A DNA stretch of 38,932 nt from Gemmatimonadota bacterium. Its GTDB lineage: Bacteria; Gemmatimonadota; Gemmatimonadetes; Palauibacterales; Palauibacteraceae. This document shows, piece by piece, positions 15,030 through 22,685 of this stretch (position 1 is its first letter; each line of letters begins with the position of its first letter). The stretch spans positions 1-38,932 of the forward strand of contig JAJDWE010000053.1 in NCBI GenBank assembly GCA_022825725.1. The letters are read 5' to 3'. The notes beneath the pieces are model-generated. The model was not told where the DNA came from and made no database searches. It saw nothing but the letters and a program-made list of their open reading frames with translations. A program made the position numbers and the translations under genes.

Positions 15030-15103
15030 TGGGCCCGGCAGGATTCGAACCTGCGACCTTGGGATTATGAGTCCCCTGCTCTAACCAGCTGAGCTACGGG
15101 CCC
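15030..15103 (-). tRNA. tRNA with CAU anticodon (Met or lysidine-modified Ile2)
   Basis: A 74-base cloverleaf with a perfect 7-bp acceptor stem (GGGCCCG/CGGGCCC) and discriminator A. The D-arm is AGCTCAGCTGGTTAGAGC, the anticodon loop is CTCATAA (anticodon at 15067-15069), and the T-arm is GCAGG-TTCGAAT-CCTGC. One G-A mismatch closes the anticodon stem. CCA is not encoded. CAU occurs in elongator Met, initiator Met and Ile2 tRNAs. The paired acceptor end argues against initiator, but I cannot separate Met from Ile2. Confidence 0.95.
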
Positions 15104-15189: not shown

Positions 15190-16251
15190 TCACGGTGCGA
15201 CGTCGACCCCGACCTCGGGACCATCCCGCTCGATCACCTCTCCGATCACGGCGGAGGCGTAGCCCGCAGCGGCGAGCGCGGCCGATGCGGACGACGCGTC
15301 GTCCGCGGGGACGGCCGCCAGCAGCCCGCCCGATGTCTGCGGGTCGAGGAGGAGGGTCCGCCGGTCTTCGGCGACCGCGTCATCCCACCGCACCTGCGAC
15401 GCGTAGGCGTCCCGGTTCCGGGTCGTGCCGCCCGGGACGCACCCCTCCCCGGCGAGGCGCAGCGCTCCGGGGAGGAGTTTCGGCGCCGAAGCGCGGATCC
15501 GGGCGCTCGCATCCGAGGCGCGGCACATCTCGAGCAGGTGGCCGAGGAGCCCGAAGCCGGTGACGTCGGTGGCCGCGTGAACGTCGAAGCCGGAAAGGAC
15601 GGCCGCCGCCTCGCGGTTGAGTTGTCGCATGGAATCGACGGCGACGCGGAGGTCGGCGAGGTCCGTCACGCCGCGCTTGATCCCCGTCGTGACGACGCCC
15701 GTTCCGAGCGCCTTGCCGAGCACGAGCGCATCCCCCGGCCGCGCGCCGCCCTTCCTCCACAGGCGGTCGGGATCGCCGAGTCCGATGGCCACGAGTCCGA
15801 ACTTCGGCTCCGCGTCGTCGATCGAGTGTCCCCCCGCGACGGCGATGCCGGCCGCGCGGCACACTTCCCCCGCGCCGCGGAGGATCGCGCCCACGATCTC
15901 GTCGGAGAGCGTTCCGGCGGGAACCGCGAGGATGTTGAGCGCGAAGATGGGGCGGGCCCGCATCGCGTAGAGATCGCCGAGCGCGTTCGCGGCCGCGATG
16001 GCGCCGAAGTCCTCCGGATCGTCGACGAGCGGAGTGAAGAAGTCGAGGCTCGCGACGATGGCTTCCCCGTCGTCGAGCAGATACACCGCGGCGTCGTCCG
16101 GACCATCGAGTCCCACGAGGAGCCGGTCATCGGGAACGTGCGGAACGTGCTGCAGGATGCGGCCCAGATCCTCCGGGCCGAGCTTGCACGCTCAGCCGGC
16201 TCCGTGAGAGTACTGGGTCAGGCGGGCCGCTTCGGCCGAGGGCGAGTTCAT
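15190..16251 (-). CDS. selD: Selenide, water dikinase, predicted selenocysteine-containing (UGA at codon 20)
   Basis: Makes selenophosphate from selenide and ATP, the selenium donor for selenocysteine tRNA and selenouridine. Reading from the ATG at 16251 gives MNSPSAEAARLTQYSHGAG, then UGA (16194-16192), then ACKLGPEDLGR. It continues in frame into an unmistakable SelD core (DDAAVYLLDDGEA, SLDFFTPLVDDPEDFG, AGGHSIDDAEPKFGL, VTGFGLLGHLLEM). In other SelD proteins the motif is SHGAGCGCK, with catalytic Cys17 and Lys20 in E. coli. Here UGA replaces exactly that Cys while the second Cys (22) and the Lys (23) remain. With a SECIS-like hairpin right after it, the UGA should be decoded as Sec, giving 353 residues. 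A start after the UGA (16116) would lack the catalytic loop. The gene is 43 bases downstream of batC. No selA, selB or selC is in the window. Confidence 0.92.
16146..16190 (-). promoter_or_regulatory. Candidate bacterial SECIS element in selD
   Basis: Starting two bases after the UGA, CGTGC (16190-16186) pairs with GCACG (16150-16146). Inside that stem, CGGCCC (16180-16175) pairs with GGGCCG (16165-16160) around a nine-base loop beginning GG. A stem-loop just 3' of the UGA with G at the start of the apical loop is what SelB recognises in bacterial selenoprotein mRNAs. The structure was folded by eye. Confidence 0.6.
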
Positions 16252-16294: not shown

Positions 16295-17005
16295 CTACCA
16301 GTTCCGCTCCACGACGGGATCCTGGAAACGGTTGCGGCCCATCACACGGTCGCGAATCGCCGCTTCCGCGTCCCCCGCCTGTTCGAGAAGCGCCGCCGCC
16401 TGTTCGGGCGAGAGCATCTCCATCTCGCCGGAGCCCGCGGCCGCGGCGGCGCCGGCGCCGGCCCCCTGTGGAGACTGTCCCTGCCCGCCCTGCTGCTCAT
16501 CGCCGCCGCTCTCTCCCTCCTCCTCCAGCCAGCGCTCGACGAGTTCGAGGTTCCAGCGCGCGTCCTCATCGTCCACGCGACGGCGGAGGACCTCGCGGAA
16601 GGCTTCGCGCGCCGCCTGGAGGGCGTTCCGACGCGCCGAGGGGTCGCTCTGGGCGAAACGGCCGTCGAGGGCCGTGCTGAGTCCGAGGTTGTAGAAGGCG
16701 CTCTCGCGCACCTCGTCCCGCTCGCTGCCGATCGAGAGTTCGAGGGGGGCCTGCGCCTCCGCGACCTGTCCGTCGTGGAGGAGGGCCGTCCCGTAGTTGT
16801 AGTGGTCGATGGGGCGGTCGGAGGAAGCGGCTCGCTCCCGGTAGCGTGCGACGGCCTCGGATTCGGACGCCTGCGGTTCCCCGGCGCCGGCCTGGCCGGC
16901 CGCCTGACCCGGCGCGGCCTGCGGCCCGCCCCCGGCGAACGCCGCGAGCGAGGCGGCCGCGGCCGCGAGCCCGAACATCGCAACCCTCCGCGTCGATTCA
17001 ACCAC
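16295..17005 (-). CDS. batC: BatC-like TPR protein, last gene of the moxR-bat cluster
   Basis: About 236 residues with an N-terminal hydrophobic, signal-like segment (MFGLAAAAASLAAFAGG). A TPR-type helical region follows (DHYNYGTALLHDGQVAEAQ, ESAFYNLGLSTAL, REAFREVLRRRVDDEDARWNLELVERWL), then a Gly/Gln/Ala-rich stretch and an acidic-amphipathic tail (LSPEQAAALLEQAGDAEAAIR). This is the layout of BatC from Bacteroides aerotolerance loci. The GTG at 17005 overlaps the batB stop and gives an Arg-Arg n-region. The ATG at 16978 has a better ribosome site (GGAGG) but no basic residues before the hydrophobic core. The start is therefore undecided between the two. Likely an envelope protein helping the BatA/BatB complex; biochemical role unknown in the family. 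Confidence 0.8.
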   Translation of the reverse strand: MVESTRRVAMFGLAAAAASLAAFAGGGPQAAPGQAAGQAGAGEPQASESEAVARYRERAASSDRPIDHYNYGTALLHDGQVAEAQAPLELSIGSERDEVRESAFYNLGLSTALDGRFAQSDPSARRNALQAAREAFREVLRRRVDDEDARWNLELVERWLEEEGESGGDEQQGGQGQSPQGAGAGAAAAAGSGEMEMLSPEQAAALLEQAGDAEAAIRDRVMGRNRFQDPVVERNW

Positions 17006-17987
17006 GTGGCAACAGGAACCCTTCTCCCCAGAGGCTGACGAAGGCGAGCAGAAGCAACGCCGCTACGGCCGCGTCGTCCGTCGACGTCAGGGGTTCCCGG
17101 CCGCCCTGCGCCAGTTCCCGCTCGATCGCGTCGATCCCGTCCGAACCGTCAACATAGCGGCCGCCGGTGCCGAGAGACATCTGCCTCAGCGACGCGGCGT
17201 TCAACCGCGTGATGACGGGGCTCCCGTCCGGCCCCTGCAGCACCGAGGCGCCGCCCCGCCGCCGCGCGGCCATCGTCGGGTCCAGCGACGCCTCCCGCGT
17301 CAGGGGAATCTGCCCGCCGAGTTCGCTCCCGATCCCCACGGCGTGGATGACGATCCCCGCGTCCCGGGCCCGCCCGATCGCCTCACCGAGGGGCGCGCCG
17401 GCCGTTTCCTCGCCGTCGGAGAAGACCACGATCGACTTGCGGGCGCCCTCCTCTCCGCCGGCGAGCAGATCGATCGCCTGCGTGAGGCCGGAAGCGAGCG
17501 AGGATCCGCCGAGTCCCACCGCCGCGGGGCGCACGCCCTCCGCCAGCATCTCGATCGCGCTCATGTCCGTCGTCAGCGGCGAAAGCACGTACGCGCGGCC
17601 CGCGAAGTAGACGACGCCCATCCGACCCTCCGTGCGCGTCGCGAGGTGGGCGGCCAGTTGCCGCTGCACTTCCAGCCGGCTCGGCTCGACATCGCCCGCC
17701 AGCATCGAGTTCGACGCGTCGAGCACCAGGATCGTCTCCGCTCCCCCTTCGTCGAGACGCCGGGCCTCCGTCCCGCCCGACCCGGAGGCGAGCGCGAGCG
17801 CGACGACGCCCGCCCCGAGCAGGGCCAGTCGAAGCGGGGGAAGGACGTGGACCGGCAGCCTCACGTAGCGCTCGAGCAGCGACGTTTCGGCGAGCTTTTC
17901 GCGGTCGGCGCTCGACCGCCGCGAGGCGAGCAGCCTGAGACCGATGGCCAGCGCTCCGAGCAGGAGGGCGACGGGGAGCGGGGCCAC
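16998..17987 (-). CDS. batB: BatB-like von Willebrand factor A membrane protein
   Basis: 329 residues. Two N-terminal membrane helices (about 3-20 and 50-68) flank a basic loop. A VWA domain follows with the metal-ion-dependent adhesion site DASNS at residues 90-94 and the later FSDGEETAG. A C-terminal helix follows (AAVAALLLLAFVSLW). The MIDAS implies divalent-metal-dependent binding of a protein partner. In moxR-bat loci BatA and BatB form a membrane complex thought to protect or assemble envelope proteins, with MoxR as the AAA+ motor. The GTG start at 17987 is two bases after the batA stop, so the genes are translationally linked. The exact start is weakly supported by ribosome-site sequence. 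Confidence 0.87.
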   Translation of the reverse strand: MAPLPVALLLGALAIGLRLLASRRSSADREKLAETSLLERYVRLPVHVLPPLRLALLGAGVVALALASGSGGTEARRLDEGGAETILVLDASNSMLAGDVEPSRLEVQRQLAAHLATRTEGRMGVVYFAGRAYVLSPLTTDMSAIEMLAEGVRPAAVGLGGSSLASGLTQAIDLLAGGEEGARKSIVVFSDGEETAGAPLGEAIGRARDAGIVIHAVGIGSELGGQIPLTREASLDPTMAARRRGGASVLQGPDGSPVITRLNAASLRQMSLGTGGRYVDGSDGIDAIERELAQGGREPLTSTDDAAVAALLLLAFVSLWGEGFLLPRG

Positions 17988-17989
17988 CG

Positions 17990-18976
17990 TCAGGTCCAGA
18001 CCCGGCGGGATCGTGTCGCCGCCAACAGGAGTTCAAGCATGACGAGCGCGAGCGCCGCGATGAGAAGCTGCCGGCGCATCCCGACCCGCTCCTCCGTCCG
18101 CACTTCCTTGATCGGAGTGGTCTCGAGTTCGTTGATCCGTTCGTAGATCCGCGTGAGTCCCTCGGGATCGGTCGCGCGGAAGTAGATGCCGCCCGTTTGG
18201 GTCGCCATGCGGTCGAGGAGTTCGTCGTTCACGTGGACGCGGATATTCGCGTACTGGTATCCGAAGGCGGTCCGGGCCACGGGCACGGGGGCGACCCCGT
18301 CGCGGCCGACGCCGATCGTGTAGACGCGGATGCCGAGGGAGGCGGCCGCGGCCGTCGCCTCTTCCGGCGAAATGCCGCCGCTGTTGTTGTCTCCGTCGGT
18401 GAGCAGCACGACGATGCGCGATTCCGGCTCCAGGTCGCGGAGCCGGTTCGCCGCCGTGGCGAGCGCGACGCCGATGGCCGTCCCGTCCCGGAGCTGTCCC
18501 GCCTCGAGCCGCTCCACCGCGCTCTCCACGACCGCGTGGTCCAGCGTCCCCGGGACCATCGTGAGCGCCTCTCCGGCGAAGGAGACGAGGCCGATCCAGT
18601 CCGACTCCCTTCCCTCCACGAAGCGGATGACCTCCCGCTTCGCGACTTCGATACGGTTGTCGGGCCGGAAATCCTCCGCCAGCATCGAGCTCGAGATGTC
18701 GACGGCCAGCATGATCGCCACGCCCTCGCGCTCCGATTCCACGCGCTCCCATACCCGCACGGGGTTGACGAGGGTGATGATGACGAGGCCGAGGGCGAGC
18801 GAGCGAAGGGCGGCCGGGAGCCACCACCAGAACCGTCCCCGGCCCCGGGACACGGTGAGACGGGCGATGTCCGGATACGGGAGACGGATCCTGCCCGAGC
18901 TCATCAGCGCCCACCCCAGCGGCAGCAGCGCCAGCAGGAGGAGGAACGGCCAACCGGGGAGCGCGAACTCGCTCAT
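17990..18976 (-). CDS. batA: BatA-like von Willebrand factor A membrane protein
   Basis: 328 residues. Helix 1 is at about 5-25 and helix 2 at about 53-72. Next comes a VWA domain with DISSS (D93, S95, S97) as the DxSxS metal site and LTDGDNNSG further on. The C-terminal helix is LLIAALALVMLELLLAA. This order matches BatA in the BatA-BatB pair. The ATG at 18976 has a GGAGG site and overlaps the upstream stop as ATGA, so I prefer it over the open frame that continues upstream. Probably displays the VWA domain on the periplasmic face with BatB. The precise process is unknown for the family. Confidence 0.88.
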   Translation of the reverse strand: MSEFALPGWPFLLLLALLPLGWALMSSGRIRLPYPDIARLTVSRGRGRFWWWLPAALRSLALGLVIITLVNPVRVWERVESEREGVAIMLAVDISSSMLAEDFRPDNRIEVAKREVIRFVEGRESDWIGLVSFAGEALTMVPGTLDHAVVESAVERLEAGQLRDGTAIGVALATAANRLRDLEPESRIVVLLTDGDNNSGGISPEEATAAAASLGIRVYTIGVGRDGVAPVPVARTAFGYQYANIRVHVNDELLDRMATQTGGIYFRATDPEGLTRIYERINELETTPIKEVRTEERVGMRRQLLIAALALVMLELLLAATRSRRVWT

Positions 18977-19947
18977 GCGCCGCCTCCGTTTCCGCTCGGG
19001 CCGGCTTCGGCTTCGGCGGCGTCCGGCGCGCCGGACCCATCGGCCGGGGGCGAATCCGCCATGTCCGCGCGCACGAACGCCTCGCCGAGGTCCAGGTCCC
19101 CGAGCGGACCTTCCCACTCCGTACGCATGCGCGCGAAACGGGCCAGAATCGAGTGGCGGAGAGCCGCGACGAGCCCGGAATCGGAACCCCCGAGTCCGAG
19201 GAGTTCCTTCGAGGGCGCCCATCCGCGCGTCACATCCGCATAACGCCTAAGCGTGTCCTCGTAGCCATCGTAGAACCGGTCGCCGCTCACGTCCTGTCCG
19301 ACCCACCGCTCGCGGAGGCGCGCGAGTTCGCGGAGCGCGAGGTCGCCGGGGCCGAGGGGGACTTCGGCGGCGGCCGCGGCGGCGCGGCGGCGACCCCAGG
19401 TCCACCAGGCGAGTCCGGCGAGCGCCGCAGCGAGCAGGAGCAGCCACCAGGGCAGCGCCCGCAGACTCAGCAGGGGCCGGGCGTCCCTCAACTCGAGCGG
19501 ATCTTCCGCGGCCGGAAGCACGCTCACGACGGGGACCGGCGGGGGCTGCAGCCGACGGACCACGCCCCCCGCGGCCGCGAGTTCCACCTCCACCGGCGGG
19601 ATGACGAGCGTATCCGCGCGCCACGCGCGCAGCGGGTACTCCGCTTCCCAGCGCCGACCCTCCTCGACGGACCGGATCTGCACGGGTCCCGTCTGCTCGA
19701 TCGACTCCGGCCCGTCGATGAGCGCGGGGAAACGGATCTCCCCGGATCTCTCCTGCCCGACGATGAGCCGGACCGTGAACTCCTCGCCGACCCGGACGGA
19801 CGGCGGGAGGACCGTCGCCTCCAGGTCGACCGCGGACTGCGCGGCCAGACCCGGGACGAACCCCGCTCCCGGGACGAATCCCGGCCCCAGGCCGAATCCC
19901 AGCCCCAGGCCGAGGGCAATCCGGACCATCCCCCGGGATCGCCTCAC
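18973..19947 (-). CDS. BatD-like protein: signal peptide, beta-sandwich, single helix, cytoplasmic tail
   Basis: 324 residues when started at the GTG at 19947, which has GGCGGAGG five bases upstream and overlaps the DUF58 stop as GTGA. That start gives MRRSRGMVRIALGLGLGFGL, a good signal peptide ending near AAQS. Residues about 38-145 form a beta-sandwich (VDLEATVLPPSVRVGEEFTV, the BatD/oxygen-tolerance type). One helix follows at about 166-184 (LPWWLLLLAAALAGLAWWTW), then a cytoplasmic helical tail (LALRELARLRERWV, YEDTLRRYADVTRGW) and an acidic Ala/Gly-rich end. It is much shorter than classical BatD (about 600 residues). The tail resembles DUF4381-like proteins, so it may be a reduced or hybrid form. 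Confidence 0.75.
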   Translation of the reverse strand: MRRSRGMVRIALGLGLGFGLGPGFVPGAGFVPGLAAQSAVDLEATVLPPSVRVGEEFTVRLIVGQERSGEIRFPALIDGPESIEQTGPVQIRSVEEGRRWEAEYPLRAWRADTLVIPPVEVELAAAGGVVRRLQPPPVPVVSVLPAAEDPLELRDARPLLSLRALPWWLLLLAAALAGLAWWTWGRRRAAAAAAEVPLGPGDLALRELARLRERWVGQDVSGDRFYDGYEDTLRRYADVTRGWAPSKELLGLGGSDSGLVAALRHSILARFARMRTEWEGPLGDLDLGEAFVRADMADSPPADGSGAPDAAEAEAGPSGNGGGA

Positions 19948-20872
19948 CGAAGCCTCCGCCGGCCGCGGGCCGCGAAGAAGCCGGAGAGCCGGGACTCGTA
20001 CGGGGTGTCGGTGCGCAGCCGCATGAGGTCCACATGGCAGTGCGCGCACAGCCGTTCCAGCGCCCGCGCTCCCGTCGTCGCGTGCTCCATGAGCCGCTGC
20101 CGAAGCGCCGCGTCTCCGAGGTCGACCACGGCGCGGTCCCCCGTTTCGGGGTCCACGACTTCCACCCAGCCCGATGCGGGGATCGTCGTTTCCGCGGGGT
20201 CATCGATCGCGAGCGCGACGACGTCATGGCGCCCCGAGAGCCCCAGCAGCGGCCGGGCCAGGTTCCCGGCGCCCACGAAATCCGAGATCACGAACACGAG
20301 CGAGCGGACGGTCAGCATGCGCGCCGCGGTGACGAGCGCGAGGTCGAGATCCGTCCCCCTCCCCTCCGGCTGGACGGAAACCAGTTCATGGAGGAGGCGG
20401 AGGTTGCGGTTGCGCCCCCGTGCGGGCCGCGCGTAGCGCTCGATCCGGTCGGAGAAGAGGAGCATGCCCACGGGGTCTCCCGCACGCATCGCCGCGAGGG
20501 CCAGGGTGCTCGCCACCTCCGCGACGAGGTCGCGCTTCAGCGCCTTCCGCGTGCCGAACTCGTTCGAGGCGGAGACATCGACGACGAGGAGGACGGCGAG
20601 TTCCCGTTCCTCCACGAAACGCTTCACGTACGGGCGGCGCATGCGGGCGGTCACCTTCCAGTCGATCGCCTGGAATGGGTCGCCTGGCTGATACTCGCGC
20701 ACTTCGGAGAACTCGATGCCGTGTCCGCGGAAGAGCGACGGGTAAGGTCCGAGAGCCGGGTTGTCCATGAACCGCCGGCTCTTTAACTCCAGCCGCCGAA
20801 CCTCTTTCGACGCGGCGTCGGAGTCGGCCGTCGGCGCCGGCCGTCGCGGGCGCCACAGGAAGTCGGGCAGCC

Positions 20873-20876
<4 letters not shown>
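19944..20876 (-). CDS. DUF58 domain-containing protein of the moxR cluster
   Basis: 310 residues, soluble, with the diagnostic DUF58 motif REYQPGDPFQAIDWKVTARM at about 80-99, followed by a VWA-like fold (LLVVDVSASNEFGTRKALKRD). DUF58 proteins are nearly always encoded beside moxR and probably interact with the MoxR ATPase or the Bat proteins. No enzyme activity is known. The GTG start at 20876 overlaps the moxR stop (GTGA). A conserved-looking CAHCHVD motif near the C-terminus is worth noting as a possible metal site, but I have no family evidence for it. Confidence 0.88.
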
Positions 20877-21895
<1,019 letters not shown>

Positions 21896-21944
21896 GCGCC
21901 TTCTCGCTGTCGCGGTGATGGTCGGTTTGCCAGCCGCCCGATGT

Positions 21945-22685
21945 TCACTCCAGAACCGCCCCGGAGCAAGCGGGGCCCGCCGCGCGTTTGAGCGCCGCCC
22001 GCTCCTTCGGAGACAACTCACGGGTCGCTCCCGCTGCCAGAGCGCCCAGCCGAATCGGACCGAACGAGGTCCTGCGCAACCTCAGCAGCGTGACGCCTAG
22101 CGAGGCGAGCATGCGTCGAATCTCCCGGTTTCTTCCTTCCGCGAGGACGATCTCGACGGTGGGCGACGACGTGTGCGGAGGCGTTATCCAGCGTGCGCGG
22201 CGGGCTCGCGCGGGTCCGTCTTCGAGCGCCACCCCGGCCCGCAGCCGATCCGGGAGCCCGGCCGCCACGGGCCCGCGCAATGTCGCGTGGTAGACCCGCT
22301 CGATTCCGGTCCGGGGGTGGAGGAGCCGGTGTACGACGTCCCCTTCGTTCGAGAGGAGGAGGAGACCCTCGCTCATAAAATCCAGGCGCCCGACGTGAGG
22401 CAGATGGCGGACCTCGGCGGGGAGCAGGTCGTAGATGATCGGACGCCCCCGGGGGTCATGCCGCGTGCACGTGTACCCCGGCGGCTTGTTGAGCGCCAGC
22501 CAGAGCGCCGGCTTCGGGCGGATGCGGCGGCGGTCCACTTCGACGCGTGCGGAATCCGGGTCCACCGTGGTCCCGAGCTTCGTCACGACCTCGCCGTTCA
22601 CGCGGACGCGGCCGCTGACGATGAGATCCTCGCTCCCGCGGCGGGAAGCCACCCCTGCCCTCGCAAGATATTTCTGCAGTCGCAT
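21945..22685 (-). CDS. Pseudouridine synthase, RsuA/RluB/E/F family
   Basis: 246 residues. An S4 RNA-binding domain (MRLQKYLARAGVASRRGSEDL) occupies about residues 1-60. The catalytic domain has LNKPPGYTCTRHDPRGRP and the GRLD motif with catalytic Asp102. It then has the family ending IVLAEGRNREIRRMLASLG. It isomerises a specific uridine in rRNA. By context (immediately downstream of scpA-scpB, as is common for rluB) the 23S rRNA RluB type is likely, but the target site cannot be read from the sequence. The ATG at 22685 starts exactly at the S4 domain; its ribosome site is weak. It follows scpB by 22 bases. Confidence 0.9.
   Translation of the reverse strand: MRLQKYLARAGVASRRGSEDLIVSGRVRVNGEVVTKLGTTVDPDSARVEVDRRRIRPKPALWLALNKPPGYTCTRHDPRGRPIIYDLLPAEVRHLPHVGRLDFMSEGLLLLSNEGDVVHRLLHPRTGIERVYHATLRGPVAAGLPDRLRAGVALEDGPARARRARWITPPHTSSPTVEIVLAEGRNREIRRMLASLGVTLLRLRRTSFGPIRLGALAAGATRELSPKERAALKRAAGPACSGAVLE

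Follow-up and report, generated by a model that had tools for sequence, protein, structure and literature searches.

Does the UGA that interrupts the selD reading frame at this locus specify selenocysteine (Sec), or does it mark a damaged, differently decoded or shortened gene? The locus lies in a Gemmatimonadota genome, on a stretch of 38,932 nucleotides (the window) that makes up all of contig C2 of a 3.49 Mb draft assembly (84 contigs, 97.7% complete). Translation of the minus strand between positions 15190 and 16251 with TGA read as U gave MNSPSAEAARLTQYSHGAG-U-ACKLGPEDL..., a protein of 353 residues ending at the terminal TGA (Table 1). The protein matched the curated NCBIfam SelD model TIGR00476 over residues 10-318 (378.5 bits, cut-off 125) as well as NF002098 (376.4 bits, cut-off 299), and both AIR-synthase domains, AIRS and AIRS_C, were present. 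Residues 7-349 were similar to the structure sequence 3u0o (chain A), a SelD of the E. coli type that we take to be the E. coli protein itself. In this alignment, LTQYSHGAG-U-ACKL faced LTQYSHGAGC-GCKI. Because the UGA is thereby set opposite the Cys of 3u0o, it occupies the catalytic-Cys place, as the preliminary description had proposed from the frame SHGAG-UGA-ACKL. Cys at this site of SelD is the catalytic residue, and the conserved Lys three residues past the Cys or Sec has a functional role. Position 20 and K23 were invariant across 12 aligned SelD and SelD-fusion sequences (U written as C), the motif here being G-U-ACK. A search of plasmid records returned 167 matches, all below 60% identity. 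A tRNA with a cat anticodon, called tRNA-Met, was located at 15030-15103 on the minus strand, about 90 bases downstream of selD; upstream, at 16998-22021 (minus strand), genes for a MoxR-type AAA ATPase, a DUF58 protein and two VWA proteins are clustered.

Table 1 Coordinates of selD, its predicted recoding elements and the other UGA-containing genes of the genome
Feature	Position	Strand	Details and basis
selD coding sequence	16251..15190	minus	353 codons + stop; in-frame UGA is codon 20
Sec-UGA codon (predicted)	16194-16192	minus	opposite Cys of SHGAGC in 3u0o alignment
selD terminating TGA	15192-15190	minus	translation; complete relatives align to residues 341-353
bSECIS hairpin (predicted), CGGCCCGGA-GGA-UCUGGGCCG	16180-16160	minus	9 bp; fold, model constraints, synonymous control, genus pairs
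Weaker outer stem (predicted)	16143..16193	minus	GAGCGUGC (16193-16186) with GCACGUUC (16150-16143); 8 bp; fold
FdhA locus	L147:4192-6921 (own genome, C17); TGA at L147:5293		in-frame UGA and GGUCU-loop hairpin
AhpC/TSA UGA genes (candidates)	L187 = C31:44847-45245; L188 = C39:1184-1627; L189 = C9:40701-41096		

Under translation table 11, the open reading frame in the selD frame spans 15190..16116 and encodes 308 residues from a GTG start. Since it begins only at GTG 16116, ordinary annotation would drop the active-site loop of SelD, a loss that the preliminary description had anticipated. The existence of this frame also admits the reading that translation truly starts at GTG 16116, yielding a SelD of 308 residues without the selenium-binding loop and with another role. 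Against this stands the conservation, across the family, of the part that precedes residue 46, with an MNxPxxE-type start (M or V first), RLTQYSHGAG and ACKLGPEDL; if the protein were truncated, selection would have no hold on such an N-terminal part, and we consider a downstream start very improbable. One relative (L034) encoded a SelD without the first eight residues.

It had been supposed from the window that this lineage decodes Sec, with selA, selB and selC as the genes to look for, and all three were present in the same genome. selB was found on C4 (163050-164909; 368.1 bits, cut-off 242.25), about 5 kb from a tRNA-Sec (selC) with the anticodon tca (C4:157673-157764; 79.4 bits, gathering threshold 47), and selA on C59 (34017-35345; 502.1 bits, cut-off 267.9). 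No match to TIGR03167, the model for SelU (YbbB) that would indicate a selenouridine user, was found in this 97.7% complete draft. The alpha subunit of formate dehydrogenase (FdhA; C17:10905-12908; 720.1 bits, cut-off 666.25) contained a single internal TGA in the context CSRA-U-HAPTVAG, which by comparison with E. coli FdhF is presumably the expected Sec position. A hairpin with a canonical GGUCU loop, GGUCGCC-GGUCU-GGCGGCC, followed with a spacing of 18 from the UGA. By its sequence, FdhA is a likely second selenoprotein of this genome. A raw scan for TGA-joined pairs of open reading frames near selA, selB, selC and fdhA gave mostly noise, and FdhA alone was kept. Three of the 13 AhpC/TSA-family matches held one TGA each, two of them in the context RG-x-W-U-PYC and one in RTRG-U-T, and are candidate peroxiredoxin-like selenoproteins. 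Their hairpins had a GGA loop at a spacing of 21 in one case and a GGU loop at a spacing of 20 in another; that of L189, the third gene, reached only -7.0 kcal/mol and misses the limit of -7.5 kcal/mol given below. As FdhA and three AhpC/TSA genes also hold an in-frame TGA, SelD is probably not the sole selenoprotein here. These genes bear on the possibility that UGA has been given another meaning, or that a tRNA other than tRNA-Sec reads through it (inserting Trp or Gly, for example), so that it does not encode Sec. Any sense meaning of TGA would indeed keep the selD frame open, but SelD itself terminates at TGA, and the tRNA with the tca anticodon exceeds the gathering threshold for tRNA-Sec. 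Moreover, the internal TGAs fall at the Cys/Sec position of SelD, at the presumed Sec position of FdhA and three residues ahead of a Cys (UPYC) in two AhpC/TSA genes. Reassignment is accordingly most unlikely.

The codon was conserved among relatives. In the family to which the genome belongs (f1; 35 genomes, own included), 27 carried a SelD with exactly one internal TGA, and reading its position in each locus placed it at this same codon in all 27. Among the other eight genomes, three gave no SelD match, three gave fragments or weak hits, and in two members of the genus, G029 (locus L047) and G033 (L046), the only full-length match was a fusion form, with no match to a UGA-containing SelD. 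This form has the SelD domain in common with our protein and differs from it by an N-terminal, NADH dehydrogenase-like oxidoreductase domain (TIGR03169) and by a Cys at the site (GGCAAK); the two fusions scored 402 and 408 bits, under the 700-bit cut-off of TIGR04369. Both genomes keep selB and tRNA-Sec beside the Cys fusion. Fusions of this kind with Cys are described in the accessible text of PMC4561486. Across the family, selB scored over the cut-off in 33 of 35 genomes, G029 and G033 included; the exceptions were G003 (93.6 bits) and G009 (228.2 bits, with the match at a contig edge). tRNA-Sec passed in G003, G029 and G033 and failed in G009 (38.5 bits). The UGA-containing SelD of G009 (L044) has Ser for the second conserved Cys (ASK for ACK) and Arg for the His of SHGAG. 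The SelD locus of G003 recurs letter for letter inside a named locus, the metagenome-assembled genome 'Gemmatimonadetes bacterium isolate Site_B29', and this identity establishes Gemmatimonadota as the phylum; the family may be Palauibacteraceae, which is no more than a guess.

In the phylum, 285 of 395 genomes had a SelD match (E at most 1e-30). Among the 150 matches listed, internal TGAs (one or two per match) were present in 140 and absent from 10, the position of the codon having been checked solely in the fetched loci. Fifteen lower-scoring genomes were divided into seven with TGA and eight without, and the set of named loci (n = 80) comprised 15 with TGA, 49 with TGC or TGT and 16 with no readable motif. 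The ten loci without TGA among the matches listed (L168-L177) encoded Cys at the SelD site, so that alignment of relatives, as suggested beforehand, recovered TGA or Cys codons there. A TGA is one base away from TGC and TGT, and with Cys orthologues in the phylum the UGA could in principle be a nonsense mutation or a sequencing error in a Cys gene. Such an accident is hard to reconcile with what was seen: 26 further genomes of the family have the same TGA, 140 of the 150 phylum matches listed contain an internal one, the frame is open and conserved on either side of the UGA, and the genome has the Sec machinery. We give this reading a negligible probability. We had expected the Cys-SelD genomes to have lost Sec decoding. 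This was ruled out for the ten among the matches listed, where selB scored over the cut-off in 9/10 and tRNA-Sec was found in 10/10; in the tenth, G147, the selB match starts at a contig edge and reaches 208.7 bits. Judged by gene content, Cys-SelD in these ten genomes goes with retained Sec decoding. Of the 22 genomes covered by this selB search, 20 scored over the cut-off, G147 and G036 being the failures. G036 (L154), a 99% complete genome from another family, has a UGA-containing SelD and a tRNA-Sec of 77.8 bits, and its best selB match of 171.6 bits stays below the cut-off; the only explanations at hand are that the draft is incomplete at this gene or that its selB has diverged. Five UGA loci from f4, f9 and f10 (L191, L196, L198, L199 and L202) carry a variant motif, RCAG-U-A-[AS]-K, in which a Cys precedes the Sec and none follows directly.

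A hairpin was predicted whose GGA loop (16171-16169) has a spacing of 20 nt from the UGA, with an energy of -15.7 kcal/mol. We applied the bacterial SECIS (bSECIS) constraints as stated in the accessible text of the review PMC13188914: a loop of 3-9 nt, an upper stem of 4-16 bp, G at the first two loop positions, a spacing of 16-37 nt and an energy of at most -7.5 kcal/mol. The selD hairpin lies within all of these published limits. The inner stem can alternatively be drawn as CGGCCC/GGGCCG, with 6 bp and a 9-nt loop, GGAGGAUCU. Two stems had been described at the outset; the inner stem with its GG-starting loop was found again, and the outer stem, although predicted in the window, was not conserved in relatives, being absent from the fold of L032, for example. 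Since some relatives lack it, the inner hairpin alone is likely to matter. An Rfam scan of the window at gathering thresholds matched the neighbouring tRNA only. The GGA loop is not peculiar to SelD in this genome, as one AhpC/TSA gene has it too.

The window is GC-rich, and 108 of its 748 other TGA trinucleotides (both strands) passed the limit of -7.5 kcal/mol, so the hairpin by itself is modest evidence; it was equalled or beaten at 5 of the 748. In 1000 synonymous recodings of the gene, its energy was matched or beaten by 1 for nucleotides +1 to +45 and by 14 for +7 to +36. The same control applied to the 27 family loci gave p < 0.1 for the near region in 23 and for the distal region in none, with most of these loci being close relatives and hence not independent; the remaining four, all outside the genus, had near-hairpin p values of 0.12-0.21. 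All nine pairs were present in 15/15 UGA loci of the genus, own included. They included the divergent member L033, in which a C-G pair was replaced by U-A, with both sides changed, and a G.U pair by A-U; at the changed pairs its protein differs as well, with one P and one G each replaced by S.

Three hairpin structures were compared between UGA and Cys loci, designated A (loop at +18), B (loop at +21) and distal (loop at +33); L182 (ambiguous bases) and the Cys locus L172 (missed by the motif) are excluded from the counts. In nine phylum TGC loci, the pairs formed numbered 2-5 of 6 for the distal structure, 3-5 of 9 for B and 4-7 of 9 for A. By comparison, distal pairs numbered 5-6 of 6 in all 27 UGA loci read from f3, f5, f6 and f8, B pairs numbered 9/9 in the 15 genus loci, and A pairs numbered 9/9 in 7/7 f2 loci and 7-8/9 in 12 loci from other genera of f1. 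The ranges of UGA and Cys loci hardly meet for the distal and B structures; they touch at 7/9 for A, which makes the A hairpin less certain in the other f1 genera. In the named set, single loci among the 49 with Cys reached up to 8/9 B, 7/9 A and 5/6 distal pairs, and the Cys locus L169 was a partial exception in the phylum set, keeping 5/6 distal pairs. Against synonymous recoding, p < 0.1 was obtained at the distal position in 12 of 15 named-set UGA loci; among the 49 named-set Cys loci it was obtained for the distal region in 2 and the near region in 9, and among the nine phylum Cys loci for the near region in L174 only and the distal region in L169 only. The f3 UGA loci held 6/6 distal pairs in 8/8 loci, yet p < 0.1 in only 3/8. 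Collectively, these comparisons indicated that the selD hairpin is kept by selection and mostly lost in Cys orthologues, with L169 departing from this in part. Such a loss is predicted for a SECIS element, but not for a constraint on the encoded protein.

The hairpin thus compared was not placed alike throughout the phylum. A near hairpin (loop at +21 or +18) was found in the family of the genome, f1, and in a second family of its order, f2; a distal hairpin resembling the E. coli-like GCAGGUNCUGC, with its loop at +33, was found in f3, f5, f6, f8 and most UGA loci sampled from other phyla. In f4, f9, f10 and f11, the distal helix was not formed by the UGA loci (1-4/6 pairs). Raw pair counts, taken without a null model, gave partial A structures in three f4 loci (6, 7 and 8 of 9) and in f10 (7/9), only 5/9 in f9, and partial B structures (7/9) in two f11 loci; six Cys loci from f4 and f7 (L190, L193, L194, L195, L197 and L200) had 3-6/9 A pairs. 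We had considered the near hairpin unique to f1 and f2 and the distal form ancestral, an idea dropped after the partial near hairpins of f4, f10 and f11 were seen. Because f4, f9, f10 and f11 lack the distal helix and have near hairpins in part, we no longer maintain that there was one shift, nor which way it went. Both structures were predicted for L059 (FCB group) and L084 (Neomarinimicrobiota), with non-significant near p values of 0.22 and 0.14. That the SECIS of one and the same gene sits at two alternative positions within the phylum, near (about +18 to +23) or distal (+33), is a tentative proposal that we hold to be rather less probable than its opposite; the near-position set comprises the genus, f1 and f2, with weaker evidence for f4, f10 and f11. 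If true, one SelB would read both GGA and GGU loops, and the recoding signal would have moved by about 14 nt in descent, or one of two ancestral hairpins would have been lost. The GGA signal of selD could also set the translational priority of SelD relative to other selenoproteins under selenium scarcity.

Like known Sec-containing SelD (SPS2; selenide, water dikinase), the locus has a UGA for the catalytic residue in the N-terminal loop, the conserved Lys three residues on, the AIRS domains and a bSECIS downstream. Nothing essential differs, although the loop is GGA, without the U of the common GGU, and the spacing is 20 nt, as against about 32 nt for the UGA loci read from four further families of the phylum and from most other phyla sampled. 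Cys-SelD of the E. coli type (3u0o) has the same fold family and the motif SHGAGC-x-CK, but Cys replaces Sec and a SECIS hairpin is not expected. Sec-containing SelD is already established, and the core finding is textbook knowledge, ordinary in kind. In their accessible texts, PMC1794560 reports that the bacterial selenoproteins of widest occurrence are FdhA and SelD, PMC13188914 ranks SelD second among selenoproteins, and PMC12013277 surveys 83,103 Sec-utilising organisms. A shallow search of openly accessible papers found none describing Sec use in Gemmatimonadota: 'gemmatimonad' is absent from the main texts of PMC4561486, PMC13188914, PMC12013277 and PMC5029168, and the single instance of 'selen' in the Palauibacterales paper PMC10469786 is part of the name of an author. 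We claim no priority, because large surveys such as PMC12013277, as far as its accessible text tells, may well include such genomes.

Taken together, the gene, the codon and its conservation, the hairpin, selA, selB and selC, and the other UGA-containing genes were all observed, and they argue that the product of the locus is a selenophosphate synthetase with selenocysteine in it, a reading to which we assign a probability of about 97% from genome data. We infer the events in the cell as follows. A ribosome would reach the UGA at codon 20, where SelB carrying Sec-tRNA-Sec would bind the hairpin that begins 11 nt past the UGA, and Sec would be inserted without termination. The selenol of SelD would then act as the catalytic residue, a role established for the SelD family, handling selenide as ATP is hydrolysed and selenophosphate is formed; with this selenophosphate, SelA would make more Sec-tRNA. 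As SelD makes the selenophosphate for Sec-tRNA, it would need its own product for its own synthesis, in a positive loop.

Gene callers will truncate SelD proteins of this kind, and the active site will be lost with the missing part. Since SelD orthologues with Sec and with Cys, mostly having and lacking the hairpin respectively, can be paired within the phylum, the evolution of SECIS elements is testable there. For the organisms themselves, the genomes indicate that members of the largely uncultured phylum Gemmatimonadota decode UGA as selenocysteine.
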